DNA of 64,000 bases from a candidate division BRC1 bacterium HGW-BRC1-1 (GTDB taxonomy: Bacteria; Sumerlaeota; Sumerlaeia; Sumerlaeales; Sumerlaeaceae), in assembly GCA_002842095.1 (NCBI GenBank), contig PHCB01000009.1, positions 195,468 through 259,467 on the forward strand, given 5' to 3'. This document shows positions 28,387 to 35,235 of this stretch, piece by piece. Every line of letters begins with the position of its first letter. The stretch's first letter is position 1. The notes below the pieces were generated by a model. The model saw nothing but the letters and a program-made list of their open reading frames with translations, searched no databases and was not told the DNA's origin. Position numbers and translations under genes: made by a program.

Positions 28387-29095
28387 ATGTTCCCTTCTCG
28401 GGAAAGACGGCAGGCGGGGTCGCACGCGTTTCACGCGCACGACGTCGTCGTCTCACTTCCCTTGGTCGCCTGCGAGGTTAGCTGACGGACTCGGAATGTG
28501 GAAGCCATCCCGTTGCGCACGATGGTGCGCAATTCGCCCCGGAAACCTGGGTCCCCCGTCCGCGGCCGAGGCCGCGGTTCGGCGTTTGCTATGTAAAATT
28601 AAAATGTGCCGTGGCGACCCGTGAGCCGCGCGGTGTGATGCCCGCCACCAAAGCGCAACAAATGCTTCTTGGAGCGACATGAAATACAGGGCCACCGCAG
28701 ACATTCTTGTCGAAATAGTGACAACGGAAAGATCCGAACCGGGCACATGGTTTACGCTTAGCCTATTTGTGCAGTCGGAGGAATGGCATTCCAGGGAAAA
28801 GCAAAAAGCGAAACGGCCAAAAAGAGATGCTTCTCTGACCGACGCGCTTTGCGGTGACCGGCGAGGGCGCCGGTCCCACATTAACCGCAAAGGGGACGAA
28901 GACCAAGGGAGGCGCATTGGAACCGCATCCTTTGCTTTATTATAACCCTGCATTTCTTGGCGCTTTTTGCGTGTTCGCGTCAGATTTTTTTGGTCGCCGA
29001 AGGGTCGCCAAAGGCCCCCATGGGAATTTACTTTTATAGAACTTTTGTTCTACGCTCTTCCGGTGTTCGATCAAAACAAAACACTGGGAGACACC
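28387..29095. other. 709-bp non-coding region upstream of the phage-head island
   Basis: No gene could be supported here. Two inverted repeats are visible: CCGCGGCC-GA-GGCCGCGG at 28560-28577, and GACCGGCG-AGGG-CGCCGGTC at 28856-28875. Neither is followed by a T run. The open frame at 28679-28945 has a plausible Shine-Dalgarno but a Lys/Arg-rich, non-domain-like product, so it is not called. No integrase, att-like direct repeat or tRNA was seen. The base composition falls towards AT just before the portal gene. Confidence 0.7.
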
Positions 29096-30634
29096 ATGCA
29101 GCCGCCACAACCCATCTTCAAAACTGTTGCCGGGGAAAACGCCGGACTCGACTCCGTTAACCTCTCTCCCGCCGGTCCCTGGGCCTGGGGGAATTCCTAT
29201 TGGCGCGGGATGCCCGGGGGCGCTTACGGACTGTTCCGCGAGATGGAGGAGAACGACGCGCATCTGCACGCTGTCCTGCAGACGCGCAAAAACTGTTTGC
29301 TGGCGTGTTCGTATCACCTCGCGCCGGCAGACGACTCCGCCCAGGCGGCGGCTCTGGCGCGCGACCTGGAGGTGCAGCTGCGCGCGGCGGAGGGTTTCGA
29401 TGCGGCGCTGTTTGCGCTGCTTGACGCCTTCGCCCGGGGATGGGCGGTGGCCGAGATCATCTGGGAGACAACGCCCAACCGCGCGCCCCGCGTGGCGGCG
29501 CTTATCCCGGGGCGACCGGAGCGCTTCGCTTTCGACACCAGCGGCGCGCTGGTTCTTCTGGACGGAAATCCAGCGCCTCCATCAACCGCACTCACCACCG
29601 CATCCACGCCGCGGCTTGTGCCACGACCGGGTGAATTTTCGGTTCCGTATTCGCGCGGTGCCCGACCCATGCCGGCGCGGAAATTTCTCACATTTACGTT
29701 TCAGGGTTCGCCCGCCAATCCCTATGGCACGCCGCTGTGCGGGCGGGCGTGGTGGCTGTACTGGCTGAAGCGGCGCGGGGTGGCGCAGTGGGCATCATTC
29801 AACGAACGCTTTGGCGCGCCCACGGCGGTGGCGCGTTACAGCCCGGCCACATCGGCCGAGGAGATCGAGCATCTGCGCGAGGCGCTGTCATCGTTGCAGC
29901 GCGACGCCGGGTTGATCATCCCCGACGGCGTGGGTCTGGAACTGCTTGAACCACGCGCCGGTGGGGCGTCGGGCACGTATCGCGACTTCGCCGATTGGTG
30001 CAATGACGAGCTTTCGAAAATCGTGCTGGGGCAAACGCTGACCACAGGCGAGGGGCGTCGCAGTGGCAGCCTGGCGTTGGGCCAGGTGCACGAACGGGTG
30101 CGCGGCGAGTATCTGGCGGCCGACGCACGGGCGCTAGCGGCGGCCATCTCGTCGCAGCTTCTGCGCTGGATGACCGACTTCACCGCAGGCCCAGCGACAC
30201 CAGCACCCCGCATGATTTTCGACACAACGGACCCTGCGGAATTTCGCGCCCAACTGGAACTGGACCGCGAGTTGGTGAAGCTGGGCGTGGCGCTTCCCGA
30301 GCGTTATTTTTACGAGACCTACCGCCGCACGCAACCGGCACCCGGCGAGCGCGGCATGCGCTACGACGACGCCAACCTGTACCAGTATCACCTGCAATAC
30401 GGTGTGCTGACAGTGAACGAGGTGCGCGCCTCGCTGGGGATGGCTCCGGTGGCATGGGGGGATCGATCGACCCGCGACGACGCTTCGGCAGACAGCGACG
30501 ATCCGCGCAAATCCACAACCTCGGGTGCAAACCTGAACAACAAAAGCGCGGGCGCGGATCGCGGGATGGAATTGGATGGAGACGCCGACGAGGGCGACGG
30601 GGCCGAGCTGCGCCGTGAGCGACGCAGGCGATGA
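29096..30634 (+). CDS. Mu-like phage portal protein (DUF935)
   Basis: The 512-residue protein matches the Mu gp29/DUF935 portal family in length and pattern. YGLFREMEENDAHLHAVLQT is followed by ALLDAFARGWAVAEIIWE, PYGTPLCGRAWW, FNERFGAPTAVARY, KIVLGQTLTTGEG and EVRASLGM near the C-terminus. The portal forms the dodecameric ring through which DNA enters the capsid. The start at 29096 is preceded by GGGAG. An open frame to 28967 has no family sequence in its extension. No terminase gene precedes it, although in Mu-like phages gp28 (terminase) normally does. This is the first gene of the head island. Confidence 0.88.
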   Translation: MQPPQPIFKTVAGENAGLDSVNLSPAGPWAWGNSYWRGMPGGAYGLFREMEENDAHLHAVLQTRKNCLLACSYHLAPADDSAQAAALARDLEVQLRAAEGFDAALFALLDAFARGWAVAEIIWETTPNRAPRVAALIPGRPERFAFDTSGALVLLDGNPAPPSTALTTASTPRLVPRPGEFSVPYSRGARPMPARKFLTFTFQGSPANPYGTPLCGRAWWLYWLKRRGVAQWASFNERFGAPTAVARYSPATSAEEIEHLREALSSLQRDAGLIIPDGVGLELLEPRAGGASGTYRDFADWCNDELSKIVLGQTLTTGEGRRSGSLALGQVHERVRGEYLAADARALAAAISSQLLRWMTDFTAGPATPAPRMIFDTTDPAEFRAQLELDRELVKLGVALPERYFYETYRRTQPAPGERGMRYDDANLYQYHLQYGVLTVNEVRASLGMAPVAWGDRSTRDDASADSDDPRKSTTSGANLNNKSAGADRGMELDGDADEGDGAELRRERRRR

Positions 30635-30690
30635 CGGAACACCCGTTTTTCCAAATTAAAATTTCACGAAATGAAAGGAGACGCAGCATC

Positions 30691-31632
30691 ATGAAAGACG
30701 AAGAGGCAGTGGAAATGGAGGTGTTCCGCGCGGGCGACTACGGCGAGCGGGGCGCCTGGACGGAGGAGCAGATCGATCGGCTGGCGACGGATTACAACGC
30801 GCAGTTGCACGAGGCTCCGCTGACGCTGGACCACGCCCAATCAGGCCCGGCGTTGGGCTGGGTGCGGGCGCTGCGCCGGGTGGGCGACCGCCTGGTGGCG
30901 CAAGTGGCACTGGGGCCGGGGAGGGTGCGCGAGTTTCTGCGCGAGGGCGGTTTCAAAAAACGCAGTGTGGAAATTCAGCGCGAGCATCCCTCCACGGGCA
31001 GGCCCTACTTGCGCGCTGTGAGCCTGCTGGGTGCGGCATCGCCCGCCGTGGAGGGGCTGGGTCCGGTGGCGTTTTCTGACACCCCGCCGGCATCGGCGGA
31101 CAACGCGGTGGTGATCGTCAGCGAAACGCCCAACGCCAACCAACCCGTCGAGGAAGGAGATGACGCCGAGCGTTCGCATCTGGCGGCGTTGCTGCGCGAG
31201 GAGATGCAACGCCTGCGCAGCCTGGCGGCCGAGCGCGAGACGCAGCATTTCGTGCGCGACTTGCGAGGCCGGGGCGTAACGCTGTTCGCCGAGGACGAAG
31301 CGATGGTGGCGCGACTGGCCCATCAGGCGTGGTCCGCACGGCCCGATGCGATTGGTTCGACTGCAATCAGCGTCGATGCATCGCCACTTGATGCGCTGTT
31401 CGATTGGCTGGGCGGACTGCTGGCGGGTCGCGCGTTGACTCCGCCGAAAGGCGAGGCCGCGCCGGAAACGAACAACGGTACCAACCCGCCCCTCGCGGCA
31501 GCGTTCTCCGAGCGATGCGATCCCGCATCGGCGGCCCTGCACCAGCGCGCCCTGCTGATCCAGGAAGCCAACCCCGCGCTCAGCTATTCGGAGGCGCTGA
31601 TGGAGGCTGCAACGCAAGCACGCAATTCCTGA
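30691..31632 (+). CDS. Mu-like phage I protein (prohead protease/scaffold)
   Basis: The protein has 313 residues. The N-terminus has MEVFRAGDYGERGAWTEEQ, then APLTLDHAQSGPALGWVRAL and GFKKRSVEIQREHP, typical of Mu-like I proteins. A helical scaffold-type region follows, and the C-terminal NPALSYSEALMEAATQARNS matches the usual end of the family. In Mu this protein cleaves itself and releases a scaffold that directs capsid assembly. The start at 30691 has AAAGGAG ten bases upstream. It sits directly after the portal. The minor head protein (Mu gpF), which usually lies between the two, is absent. Confidence 0.82.
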   Translation: MKDEEAVEMEVFRAGDYGERGAWTEEQIDRLATDYNAQLHEAPLTLDHAQSGPALGWVRALRRVGDRLVAQVALGPGRVREFLREGGFKKRSVEIQREHPSTGRPYLRAVSLLGAASPAVEGLGPVAFSDTPPASADNAVVIVSETPNANQPVEEGDDAERSHLAALLREEMQRLRSLAAERETQHFVRDLRGRGVTLFAEDEAMVARLAHQAWSARPDAIGSTAISVDASPLDALFDWLGGLLAGRALTPPKGEAAPETNNGTNPPLAAAFSERCDPASAALHQRALLIQEANPALSYSEALMEAATQARNS

Positions 31633-31773
31633 CCACGAGCAGAGCACATTCCGCACCCCACCGTTCCGATGGCGAACCAACCGCGCACGACCACCGGAGC
31701 CTCAACCATTCGCATCAATTTGCGCGGCAACCCCTTTGCCGATTCAAACCCCAAAAGGAGGGGGAAGTACCTC

Positions 31774-32169
31774 ATGGCTTATTACCTGTTCGACAAAGCT
31801 TACCGCATCGCCGAGGCGCAAACCAACGGCGTGCCCGCCAATCGCGTGGTGGTTCAGAGCACGCTGGAGGGCGACTGCCAACTGCCCGCCGACGCCAACG
31901 CCGCAGGCCTGCTTGGCATCACGATGCACAGCCAGCTCACGCCGGGCCGCCGCGTGACGGTGCGCAAAGGCGGCACCGCCGAATGCGTTTCGGCGGCAAC
32001 CATCGCACCCGGCACACCGCTGATGGTGGCCGACGCGGGGGGTCGTGTGAAACCCGTCGAGGGCGCTGCCGGTGCCCACGTCAACTGCATCGGCTTCGCC
32101 GAGTCGGGAGCTTCCGCCATGGGCGACGTGGTGGAGGTGTTCCTGTGCATCCATCAGCGCATCATGTAA
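31774..32169 (+). CDS. DUF2190 phage capsid decoration/stabilising protein
   Basis: The 131-residue protein begins MAYYLFDKAYRIAEAQTNGV. It is a small beta protein with GRRVTVRKGGTAECV, APGTPLMVADAGGRVKP and GDVVEVFL, matching DUF2190 proteins that lie before the major capsid gene in Mu-like and siphovirus head clusters. Members act as capsid decoration or stabilisation proteins. AAAAGGAGGGGG precedes the ATG at 31774. The in-frame start at 31669 would add a non-conserved leader. Confidence 0.82.
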   Translation: MAYYLFDKAYRIAEAQTNGVPANRVVVQSTLEGDCQLPADANAAGLLGITMHSQLTPGRRVTVRKGGTAECVSAATIAPGTPLMVADAGGRVKPVEGAAGAHVNCIGFAESGASAMGDVVEVFLCIHQRIM

Positions 32170-32256
32170 CGCAGCGCGTCGCGACACCGCAACATCCGCA
32201 ACCGGGCCTGTCGGCGCCCGAAGCCGCAACGAACCAACCAAGGAGAATGACCGACC

Positions 32257-33201
32257 ATGCCTGACCCGACTACTGTCCACATCGACGCTGCGTTGACGAG
32301 CGTGAGCGTGGCCTTCCGCAACAACGAGTTCATCGCCGAACAGGTGGCGCCCACGGTGCCGGTGCGCAAGCAGAGCGACCGCTATTTCGTGCTGGACCCG
32401 GACAAGATGGCCCAGCGCGAGACGCTGGATCATCGCGCGCCGGGGGCAGAGGCCCGCGAAGTGGATTTCGCACTGAGCAGCGACAGCTACTACTGCGAGG
32501 ACCACGCGCTGGAAACCGCCATTCCCGACGAGGAACGCGACAACGCCGATCTGGCGCTGCAACCCGAGATCGACCGGACCGAGTTTCTCACCGAGAAGAT
32601 TCTGCTCAACCGCGAGATTCAGTTGGAAACAACGCTTCGCACCAACACCCACGTGGAAGAGTTGGAGGTTGAGGATTCCGGCGGCTGGGCCGGTGAAACC
32701 TCGAACCCCTTCGCGAACCTGGACGCCGCCGGCATGAGGATAATGTCCGGCATTCAACGACGCCCAAATACACTGGTGGTGGGCTACGCCGTGTTCGATA
32801 TTCTGCGCAACCATCCCAGGATAATTGAGCGCGTGCAGCACTGCATGCCCGGCGTGGTGACGACGGACCTGCTGGCGCAGTTGTTCGATCTCGACCGGGT
32901 TGTGGTGGGGCGCGCCATGAAGAACAGCGCGCCTTTGGGCAGATCGCCCGACATGCACCCCGTGTGGGGTAGCGATCATGTGTACCTCATGTACGTGCCG
33001 CAACGAGCCGGCCTGAAGCAACCGGCGGCGATGTACACCTTCGCCTGGAACGGTGCGGGCGGCGGTGTGGGTCGCGACGGCACCGTGGTGGAACGCTGGC
33101 GCGAAGACCGGCGCAAGGCCGACATGATTCGCGTGCAAAAATACTACGACCACAAGGTGATCGCCTCGGGCGCCATGATTCGATTGGTCAACGTGACCTG
33201 A
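32257..33201 (+). CDS. Phage major capsid protein
   Basis: The 314-residue protein sits in the major-capsid position between DUF2190 and DUF1320 genes. The N-terminus ALTSVSVAFRNNEFIAEQV followed by VPVRKQSDRYFVLD is typical of HK97-fold capsid proteins found with DUF2190. Later segments include TNTHVEELEVEDSGGWAGE, RRPNTLVVGYAVFDILRNHP and a C-terminal DMIRVQKYYDHKVIASGAMIRL strand. AAGGAG precedes the ATG at 32257. All regions expected of a full-length capsid subunit are present, with no stop or frameshift. Confidence 0.82.
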   Translation: MPDPTTVHIDAALTSVSVAFRNNEFIAEQVAPTVPVRKQSDRYFVLDPDKMAQRETLDHRAPGAEAREVDFALSSDSYYCEDHALETAIPDEERDNADLALQPEIDRTEFLTEKILLNREIQLETTLRTNTHVEELEVEDSGGWAGETSNPFANLDAAGMRIMSGIQRRPNTLVVGYAVFDILRNHPRIIERVQHCMPGVVTTDLLAQLFDLDRVVVGRAMKNSAPLGRSPDMHPVWGSDHVYLMYVPQRAGLKQPAAMYTFAWNGAGGGVGRDGTVVERWREDRRKADMIRVQKYYDHKVIASGAMIRLVNVT

Positions 33202-33293
33202 GCCACCCCATGACAACGGCGGGCGGAGCGGAAGCCGTGCCCCTCCCGCCATCCTGCTTTTTAACCCGATCATTTCTTTTGGAGAAACGAACG

Positions 33294-33704
33294 ATGTACT
33301 CAACGATGGATGATTTAAAATTACGATTCGCCCCCGGGTTTGTGACCGCCGTGAGCGACGATGACGCCGACGGTGAACCGAACACGGAGGTGGTGACGCA
33401 GGCCATAGCGGATGCTGACGCCGAGATTGACGCGCGACTGTCGCCGCGGTTCAACGTGCCCTTCAGCCCGGTGCCCGCATTAGTGGCGGGGATATCGAGC
33501 ACGCTGGCCGCGCGAAATCTGGCGCGGCGTTCGGCAGCTTCCGACGGGCCATCAGCCCAGGAGATCACAGCGGTGGAAAGACTGCTGACAGACCTGGCCG
33601 AGGGGCGCGCCAACCTCGGACAATTGTCAGGGGCGGCGCGAATGATTGTCTCGATACCGCTCGACACTGAGGGCGACAACGGCGACGGAGGGACCGGACA
33701 ATGA
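33294..33704 (+). CDS. DUF1320 head-completion protein (Mu gp36/J-like)
   Basis: The protein has 136 residues. MYSTMDDLKLRF followed by ADAEIDARLSPRFNVPFSPVPALV is the hallmark of DUF1320, the Mu gp36-type protein that connects head and neck. The C-terminal part is helical and acidic (DTEGDNGDGG). The start at 33294 has TTTTGGAG upstream. An upstream open frame to 33210 adds unrelated sequence. It is translationally coupled to the next gene by an ATGA overlap at 33701-33704. No tail gene follows. Confidence 0.83.
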   Translation: MYSTMDDLKLRFAPGFVTAVSDDDADGEPNTEVVTQAIADADAEIDARLSPRFNVPFSPVPALVAGISSTLAARNLARRSAASDGPSAQEITAVERLLTDLAEGRANLGQLSGAARMIVSIPLDTEGDNGDGGTGQ

Positions 33705-34102
33705 CAACGCAACGCAACAAAGTGCTGTGGGCTTCGACCATGGTGGAATCTGCCGCTGAACTGGCGGGGTTTCTCCGCGAGTATCACGAACGACCACGCG
33801 AGCGCGAGGCACGACGCTCGATGGTGGCGGCGTTCATGAACCTCGGACGGCGGCTTCTGCCCGACGCGGCGCAGGAGACGGTGACGGCCATCGTGGAACT
33901 CTGCGTGATGGAAACCGTGCGGGCGGCGTCGGCGGAGGGAGGTCGCGCATCGCGACCAGTCGAATGCCGCGCCGCGCCGCTTGTGGATGAAAGCGATGCG
34001 TTAACTGAAAAAACCACTTCATCACAGGACAGACAAACCAATGACGATCCGAGCCATTCTGGCAACCACCGCCGTCGCGGCGTTGATTCTCGCAGGATGT
34101 AA
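33701..34102 (+). CDS. Small helical protein of unknown function in the head island
   Basis: The protein has 133 residues. The ATG overlaps the stop of the DUF1320 gene (ATGA), arguing for translation. Residues 1-85 look like a compact all-helical domain (SAAELAGFLREYHERPRERE, MNLGRRLLPDAAQE, AIVELCVMETV). The last 45 residues are low complexity and overlap the start of the lipoprotein gene by 62 bases in another frame. It occupies the position of Mu gp37/K but does not resemble it. The C-terminal part may be an accidental extension. Confidence 0.55.
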   Translation: MTTQRNKVLWASTMVESAAELAGFLREYHERPREREARRSMVAAFMNLGRRLLPDAAQETVTAIVELCVMETVRAASAEGGRASRPVECRAAPLVDESDALTEKTTSSQDRQTNDDPSHSGNHRRRGVDSRRM

Positions 34103-34805
34103 CAAAGACGAGGCCGAGCTGGCCCGCATGGAAACGCCGAAATCAGAGGCGGCCATGGCAGGCGCGCCCGTGCAGCACGCACCCGGCGAGGGTGTGCAGG
34201 TTGAGCCCGGCATGGGAATGCCTTCGCCACCCGAGGGTGCGGTTCAACCCGCGCAGAATAATCTGGCGGGTGGGGTGGTGCCGCCACCACCCCCGGCGGG
34301 ACTGACCGAGGACGGTACCAACGTGTCGCTGGCGGGCGTGAAGTTCACCATCGGTAACGATTGGAAAAAGGTGCCGACGGCATCGAAACTGCGGGCGGCG
34401 CAATACGAGTTGCCGGGCCCCGGCGGCGCGGGAGAAGCCATAGTGTTTTACTTCGGCCCCGGCCAGGGTGGCGACGCAAAGGCCAACATCGACCGTTGGG
34501 TCGGACAGTTCAAACAGAGCGACGAAACATCCCCGAGCCAGGAACTGAACGTGGCGACTCTCGATAAGGACGGCATGAAGGTGGCACTGGTAAAAACCGG
34601 GGGAACATATTCACCCGCAGCCATGGGACCCATGGTACCGGCCGGTGAACCGAAGGCCGACTACGCGCTGTTCGGCATGGTGATCGAGGGCGGACCGAAG
34701 GGCAGCATCTTCATTCGGGCCACCGGTCCCAAGGCCACCATCGACGCGCAAACAGCGGCGCTGGAAGCACTGGCGAACAGCGTGGCCAAGGCACCGGCAG
34801 AGTAA
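34041..34805 (+). CDS. Lipoprotein of unknown function
   Basis: The 254-residue protein has a clear lipobox LAGC at residues 17-20, so the mature protein would be an acylated envelope protein beginning CNKDE. A Pro/Gly/Met-rich linker (about 40-95) precedes a domain with VKFTIGNDWKKVPTASKLRAAQYELPG, EAIVFYFGPGQGG and SIFIRATGPKATID, a pattern seen in small outer-membrane or surface lipoproteins of unknown role. It begins 62 bases inside the preceding gene's reading frame. A terminator lies 57 bases after the stop. It may be a host gene at the island's edge or a phage lipoprotein (superinfection-exclusion type). Sequence alone cannot decide. Confidence 0.75.
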   Translation: MTIRAILATTAVAALILAGCNKDEAELARMETPKSEAAMAGAPVQHAPGEGVQVEPGMGMPSPPEGAVQPAQNNLAGGVVPPPPPAGLTEDGTNVSLAGVKFTIGNDWKKVPTASKLRAAQYELPGPGGAGEAIVFYFGPGQGGDAKANIDRWVGQFKQSDETSPSQELNVATLDKDGMKVALVKTGGTYSPAAMGPMVPAGEPKADYALFGMVIEGGPKGSIFIRATGPKATIDAQTAALEALANSVAKAPAE

Positions 34806-34861
34806 CGCGGAGAAACGCACCGCACCACAAGATCACTGCAAACAAGATTAACGATGCATGG

Positions 34862-34896
34862 GCCCGTCCGCCGAACCAGCGCGGACGGGCTTCTTC
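34862..34896 (+). terminator. Rho-independent terminator ending the capsid-island transcript
   Basis: The 10-bp perfect stem GCCCGTCCGC/GCGGACGGGC (34862-34871 and 34881-34890), with a 9-nt loop, is followed by TTCTTC. It lies 57 bases past the lipoprotein stop and before the next small gene, so it may divide the island into two transcripts. Confidence 0.75.
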
Positions 34897-34941
34897 GTGC
34901 CCATGACATGTTCGACAAGACCGGAAAGGGAGGAGCGCAAG

Positions 34942-35235
34942 ATGGAAGAAGAAATCTGGCGGGGCGAGGTGAGCAACGAACTCAAGCACATCACCCACAC
35001 AATGACCGACGTGCAGCGTCAGGTGCAGGATATGCGCTGCGAGATTTCAACGCAGATGGAAGAGCATCGCAGCTACCACGCCCGCAACGAGCATCGCTGG
35101 GGTTTCGCGCGGTGGTGTCGGCTGCACCCGTTTCGACTGTCTGCCATCGTGGCAGCGGCAACCGCGGCCACGTGGGCCAACAACGATCCGACCCTGTTGC
35201 GCGTCATCGTATCAGCGTTGGTGAGTTTGAAATAA
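34942..35235 (+). CDS. Small coiled-coil membrane protein, possibly phage-derived
   Basis: The 97-residue protein has residues 5-50 predicted as an amphipathic helix/coiled coil (VSNELKHITHTMTDVQRQVQ, CEISTQMEEHRS). A basic patch HRWGFARWCRLHPFR follows, then one or two short hydrophobic segments at about 66-95. GGGAGGAGC precedes the ATG at 34942. The layout (coiled coil plus C-terminal membrane helix) is common in small phage proteins encoded near lysis or head genes, including some holin-like proteins, but no family was recognised. It follows the island terminator and converges with the aminopeptidase gene. Confidence 0.6.
   Translation: MEEEIWRGEVSNELKHITHTMTDVQRQVQDMRCEISTQMEEHRSYHARNEHRWGFARWCRLHPFRLSAIVAAATAATWANNDPTLLRVIVSALVSLK

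Follow-up and report, generated by a model that had tools for sequence, protein, structure and literature searches.

Why should intact phage head genes stand among ordinary host genes in a bacterial chromosome? The question is raised by a locus in a stretch of 64,000 nucleotides (contig PHCB01000009.1, positions 195,468 to 259,467) from candidate division BRC1 bacterium HGW-BRC1-1, a member of the Sumerlaeota. We refer to the whole stretch as the window and to its genome (3.77 Mb) as G000; other genomes likewise carry G numbers, contigs C numbers and the loci or contigs compared L numbers. The first-pass annotation had described a stand-alone Mu-like capsid module and had proposed to weigh a selected function, such as a gene transfer agent (GTA)-like particle, a domesticated compartment or a defence-related capsid, against a recently trimmed prophage. 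Comparing the locus across the genomes of the class, we find that the head genes and a distant terminase gene are conserved and co-inherited, and that they share a promoter motif. We conclude that they probably belong to an old, vertically inherited, multi-locus GTA-like system of the Sumerlaeota that derives from a Mu-like phage.

Head genes, a separate terminase and their inheritance

The five head genes encode a portal, a head maturation protease, a DUF2190/cement-type protein, the major capsid protein (MCP) and a gp36-type head-tail adaptor. That they are intact, consecutive and equipped with Shine-Dalgarno sequences had been proposed before and is confirmed, and their identities are borne out by Pfam and PHROG matches (Table 1). 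Of the 39 genomes of the class, 34 have an MCP orthologue, which is normally present once and free of internal stops; these orthologues are 45–60% identical to the MCP of the window, and the mean column identity is 65%. Outside the phylum, MCP matches are only distant (27–30% identity, three genomes). The order portal, protease, cement, MCP, usually followed by gp36, is constant across families, and the chromosomal contexts differ. Portal orthologues are present at 23 of the 31 head loci examined and cement-type proteins at 29 head loci, and the candidate catalytic histidine and serine of the protease (H68 and S112, in the numbering of the longer open reading frame, ORF) are invariant in all 27 orthologues. 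On genus time scales, the head locus is fixed in the chromosome: G016 and G022, which belong to the same genus, have common flanks at the head, terminase and tail loci, and the same-genus pair G021 and G029 has common flanks at the head and terminase loci. On contig C183 of G029 (L199), protease, cement, MCP, gp36 and the tail-tip gene c6 are absent between portal and c5, which reflects either a misassembly or a loss confined to that lineage.

Near the head genes of the window, we found no gene for a terminase, tail protein, integrase or transposase. The description as a module without terminase is thus correct for the window but not for the genome, as a class-conserved orthologue of the large terminase subunit (TerL) lies on another contig of G000 (C1; PHROG 38, 8e-68; Pfam Terminase_6C, 2.7e-9). 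TerL was found via a 566-amino-acid protein of G026 among weak matches to PHROG 2, which was then used as query; a Pfam PF03237 search had almost no matches and missed the orphan gene. Orthologues were detected in 33 of the 39 genomes, including 18 of the 20 high-quality ones. Their Walker A (PRGxAKST) and Walker B (LDD) motifs are kept across the class, as are the acidic nuclease residues (D487, E547 and D625/D626/D629 in G000). TerL is a lone gene amid varying host genes in nearly all genomes and lies about 10 kb from the head cluster in G033; the head set without an adjoining terminase recurs across the class, as the first-pass annotation had suggested checking, with the exception of G013, where TerL adjoins it. 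With TerL on a different contig from the head locus, a single fragment is unlikely to hold both. The TerL start is overlapped in at least 15 genomes by a short ORF of about 90–110 amino acids, which by its position is a candidate for the small terminase.

Some minor observations concern the terminase searches and genes. Matches to PHROG 2 of about 360 amino acids, which looked like a class-wide terminase ATPase, were rejected because they were identified from their sequence as PhoH. A tRNA-Ser gene (gct; L140:7194-7286) stands some 100–230 bp upstream of the orphan TerL of G000 and is possibly the trace of an old integration site. G005 has two TerL copies (C90 and C51), with the promoter motif described below upstream of each. 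One in-frame TGA each is found in the TerL of G012:C101 and in c5 of G026:C35, and is due to a pseudogene, an assembly error or recoding.

To compare the history of these genes with that of their hosts, we used patristic distances. The correlation with RpoB is 0.78 for MCP, 0.84 for TerL and 0.89 for the portal, and MCP and TerL correlate with each other at 0.82; the maxima among 9,999 permutations were 0.34–0.51. We also placed 30 module MCPs in a tree with those of 32 viral contigs and two prophages. All 30 fall into a single clade separate from phages (SH-aLRT 98), and the prophage MCPs branch outside it. The only viral contigs within the clade, L238 and L230 from IMG/VR, are near-identical to chromosomal loci of G024 and G010, respectively, and are chromosome pieces filed as viral. 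For same-genus pairs, dN/dS (NG86) is 0.05–0.19 for MCP, 0.09–0.14 for the portal, 0.12–0.24 for the protease and 0.15–0.33 for TerL, compared to 0.04–0.14 for RpoB (0.20 in one pair, G009/G018). These comparisons indicate that the module genes are under purifying selection and are vertically inherited.

A promoter motif shared by unlinked loci

In most genomes, the longest exact string common to the portal and TerL promoters is close to what chance would give; aligning the two upstream regions locally within each genome gave a signal in about five. The scores are 50 in G005 (control maximum 26), 42 in G033 (25), 37 in G019 (26), 33 in G035 (28) and 32 in G021 (29). These alignments yielded the motif AAGGGT-N4-AAR-N9-GNGAATT, which terminates in a GAATTGAC end. 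It has six matches in 1.12 Mb of the loci compared, all of them before portal or TerL and with constant spacing, among them the one at position 29000 of the window. Further sites were detected by a weight matrix upstream of additional portals and TerLs, of the tail loci of G016, G022 and G012, and of a displaced gp36 in G012. The motif often runs into TTGAC, with −10-like hexamers 16–17 bp further on in several cases. Direct repeats that lie one helical turn apart and abut a −35-like element would correspond to the layout of an activator site. The motif was partly derived from G005, G012 and G019, so that the sites in these genomes are not independent evidence; those in G000, G010, G014, G016, G022 and G023 come closer to independence, although the G000 and G023 sites are also part of the weight matrix.

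Searching with the motif led to further loci. In the whole of G000, exact matches are found only before the window portal and at C8:117934. The latter is followed by a c11 paralogue (3.6e-13) and an ORF of 236–253 amino acids without clear relatives (L361:1435-2873), for which Pfam had no match and PHROGs matched only below the threshold. The motif prediction thus revealed a third motif-led locus in G000. In G014, a match with one mismatch led to a portal gene that is absent from the head contig (9.9e-149). A second type of repeat is found in family f13, where three 9-bp repeats (GTCCG) precede portal and TerL alike in three genomes and precede the portal in one more. A holin-like gene of 70–75 amino acids near phoH occurs in G000 (C1, L096:6812-7021) and G005 (L344:1755-1979), with 64% identity between the two; the motif stands upstream of it in G005 and was not recognised in G000.

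Tail genes and the weighing of explanations

The tail was reported as missing from the module, which applies to the surroundings of the window locus but not to relatives, where tail-tip genes are linked to the head genes or make up a third locus of their own. In families other than that of the window, c6 (about 200 amino acids, with an alternative form of 320–350), c5 (about 1050 amino acids) and c9 (fibre-like, with a DDHxQYL motif and a signal peptide) follow gp36 or stand at a separate locus (G016, G022, G012, G036). In the true prophage of G010, homologues of c6 and c5 stand after the tape measure, and the predicted model of c6 resembles proteins of the tail tip and tail tube from JBD30, lambda and others. 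Judged by position and fold, both can thus be considered tail-tip proteins. For c5, the model has middling confidence, and its Foldseek matches were mixed and weak with low TM-scores; we did not use them for an identification beyond 'tail-tip-like'. Signal-peptide-like leaders are found at the N-terminus of c9 proteins (e.g. L056:15105-16643) and likewise of their homologue in the L193 prophage. Finally, G000 has a contig of 5,038 bp (C29, L189) with a 752-amino-acid tape-measure-like protein and c6-like and c5-like genes. The sole relative of this tape-measure-like protein in the class is in the G010 prophage, and the contig probably represents part of a separate phage or prophage.

GTAs have been characterised by proteins derived from caudoviricetes, endogenization often over multiple loci, mostly vertical inheritance, packaging of mostly random host DNA, incomplete packaging of their own genome and delivery to cells (PMC9662315). 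In the Sumerlaeota, the particle proteins (head genes and TerL) are of caudoviricete origin according to Pfam and PHROG, head, TerL and tail genes lie apart among host genes, and inheritance is congruent with the host in the RpoB correlations and the single MCP clade. That portal, adaptor and an intact packaging motor have been kept favours DNA packaging over a cargo shell. A GTA-like system could work as follows: a Mu-like tailed phage would have been split into head-adaptor, terminase and, in most lineages, tail-tip operons, and a host activator on 9–10 bp direct repeats upstream of a sigma70-like −35 element would probably switch these unlinked operons on together. The head products would assemble a procapsid with a portal, the protease would mature it, and the separately encoded TerL would fill it with host DNA. 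Lysis would release the particles, which would deliver the DNA to neighbours in the fashion of GTAs. A bolder version is possible, although we consider it rather doubtful: an independently domesticated GTA almost as ancient as the Sumerlaeota known so far, with head, motor and tail-tip operons under one activator motif, which in the window's family, where no tail genes are recognised, would deliver DNA, if at all, by a route new to GTAs.

Several observations weigh against a GTA-like system, and the tail is its main weakness. Class-wide searches for a tape measure found PF10145 matches in only four genomes, two of them in prophages, and only sporadic phage-like contigs when the G000:C29 protein was the query; a class-wide tail tube was not found. 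Furthermore, c6, c5 and c9 are absent from the window's family, so that DNA delivery is unexplained there. Either the tail genes of this family are unrecognised and scattered, the C8 locus being a lead, or the particles have little tail. In addition, no motif is recognisable upstream of the G000 TerL. G005 has more than 50 copies of the motif (mostly a GGGAATA variant), which also stand before host genes (e.g. a PstS-like gene) and before holin-like and endolysin-like genes (L344, L353). The activator in G005 is therefore not specific to the module but serves a broader host regulon, and may be a global regulator. The loss of MCP coincides with that of TerL in only two genomes, which is not significant, and most of the genomes surveyed are metagenome-assembled.

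How do other explanations compare? Every recognisable gene is of phage origin and real Mu-like prophages do exist in the class (G010:C26, G034:C185), as would suit a recently trimmed prophage remnant with frames intact by chance. The MCPs of these prophages, however, are only about 26–28% identical and fall outside the module clade, and the locus is flanked by host genes instead of linked transposase, terminase, tail and lysis modules. Stop-free orthologues and an orphan TerL across the class, host-congruent trees, a shared chromosomal place in same-genus pairs and dN/dS well below 1 leave a remnant extremely unlikely. No close relative has a complete prophage at the window locus, and relaxed selection, the other observation that would have spoken for a remnant, was not seen; the preference for a selected GTA-like function is thereby supported. 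The fixed and vertical pattern also argues against a satellite with its own capsid that borrows tails from helper phages. Capsid-forming phage-inducible chromosomal islands have head genes and a terminase without a full tail, and the system described here resembles them in this respect. Yet the window locus has no integrase or mobility gene and is flanked by host genes, TerL is unlinked, positions are fixed within genera and the trees follow the host, which makes a satellite very unlikely.

The two remaining explanations retain a selected function without DNA transfer. A protein shell for a non-DNA purpose, whether as a nanocompartment or within a secreted or defence device, would fit the lack of recognised tail genes in the window's family and the lipoprotein and membrane protein encoded behind the head genes. 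However, a compartment has no need of portal, adaptor and terminase, which are conserved together with the protease, and TerL keeps its ATPase and nuclease motifs. An encapsulin-type nanocompartment would have a cargo enzyme and neither portal nor terminase, whereas no dedicated cargo enzyme is conserved beside MCP. PADLOC models had no match among eight module proteins, so the module does not correspond to a known anti-phage defence system. The earlier suggestion of a domesticated compartment or defence capsid thus found no support, and we regard such a shell as quite improbable. A domesticated, PBSX-like particle from a tailed phage that kills in the manner of a bacteriocin or brings about lysis is unlikely as well, if slightly less so. 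Such a device would also be vertical, multi-gene and phage-derived, and the endolysin-like and holin-like genes behind motif copies in G005 would suit it; but here the whole head and packaging motor are kept and it is the tail that has been reduced, whereas tailocins show the reverse pattern, and PBSX itself packages host DNA and has been termed GTA-like (PMC12946183).

When comparing the GTA-like system of the Sumerlaeota to known systems, we find similarities in layout rather than membership. RcGTA of the Alphaproteobacteria (Rhodogtaviriformidae) likewise has a head and TerL derived from a tailed phage, host-congruent vertical inheritance and genes at several loci, five in R. capsulatus (PMC9662315), and the c6 model weakly matches the RcGTA virion chain 6tba_6A. 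The Sumerlaeota, a different phylum, differ in having a portal of the Mu/DUF935 type, a PHROG 38 TerL and no class-wide tape measure. An RcGTA-type system would have an orthologous, linked head-tail cluster with TerL beside the portal; in almost every Sumerlaeota genome, TerL and the head cluster are separated. The system is therefore not a member of the RcGTA family. VSH-1/BhGTA of Brachyspira (Brachygtaviriformidae) is a precedent outside the Proteobacteria for a divided genome at multiple loci (PMC9662315, PMC11841831); the likeness considered is one of genome layout, and the Sumerlaeota system spans a whole class. FpGTA of Faecalibacterium, which is GTA-like, outside the Alphaproteobacteria and described as podovirus-like, is a precedent for GTAs without long tails (PMC12946183); this likeness is by description, and packaging has experimental support in FpGTA whereas it is predicted from genes in the Sumerlaeota. 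Mu-like siphophages and prophages (JBD30, G010:C26, BalMu-1) share the portal, protease and gp36 types; TerL is 27.8% identical to that of BalMu-1, and the c6 and c5 models weakly match JBD30 baseplate chains. Unlike in these phages, genes for terminase, tape measure, transposase or lysis are not linked to the Sumerlaeota locus, which has diversified with its host and is fixed in place.

The genetic basis of GTAs outside the Alphaproteobacteria is known for few, and according to reviews, new ones cannot be distinguished from defective prophages by sequence alone (PMC11841831). In the Sumerlaeota, conservation across the class, the agreement of the trees of unlinked genes with that of the host and the promoter motif they share together offer a sequence test between the two. 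Among the papers searched, we found no report of a GTA in Sumerlaeota. If the GTA-like reading is true, host-controlled DNA transfer had an independent origin in an uncultured phylum, the combination of orphan TerL, orphan head and shared promoter is a search recipe for other phyla, and there is a case for asking how little tail suffices for a GTA.

Features of the window locus

Table 1. Genes and sequence elements of the head locus (positions in the window). The likely starts of the five head genes (29096, 30691, 31774, 32257, 33294) were set from Shine-Dalgarno positions.
Feature	Position	Strand	Evidence
Promoter motif AAGGGT-N4-AAR-N9-GNGAATT	29000..29028	+	exact match, 96 bp before portal ATG
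Portal, DUF935 / Mu gp29 type	29096..30634	+	Pfam Portal_Mu PF06074 7.1e-87; PHROG 113 4.3e-86
Head maturation protease / scaffold, Mu gpI type	30691..31632	+	PHROG 976 1.4e-33
DUF2190 / cement-type head protein	31774..32169	+	PHROG 673 1.6e-9; Pfam Phage_cement sub-threshold 0.0028
MCP	32257..33201	+	PHROG 1005 1.3e-73
Head-tail adaptor, Mu gp36 / DUF1320	33294..33704	+	Pfam Phage_Mu_Gp36 PF07030 7.9e-20; PHROG 195 connector 6.7e-23
c11, small helical protein, role unassigned	33701..34102	+	relatives 3' of head genes in window's family
c10, predicted lipoprotein	34041..34805	+	LAGC lipobox read from sequence
10-bp inverted repeat	34862..34890	+	GCCCGTCCGC/GCGGACGGGC, read from sequence
c8, coiled coil and C-terminal membrane segment	34942..35235	+	conserved motif YHxxNEHRWG...HPxR

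The host genes that had been noted on both sides, such as the amino-acid permease and the M29 peptidase, are indeed ordinary ones and further include an MscS-type channel, AcpS, LexA and AsnB. The module does not end at gp36/DUF1320 as first described, since c11, c10 and c8 also recur 3' of the head genes in relatives. The lipoprotein c10 has the same position at five loci of the window's family, and c11 is the first gene of the tail locus in G016 and G022. The inverted repeat between c10 and c8 is a possible terminator or attenuator. No Pfam match was found for c8, which may be holin-like judging by its layout. It occurs in 10 of the 39 genomes; in the window's family it follows the head genes, and elsewhere it lies close to the gene for the tail fibre.

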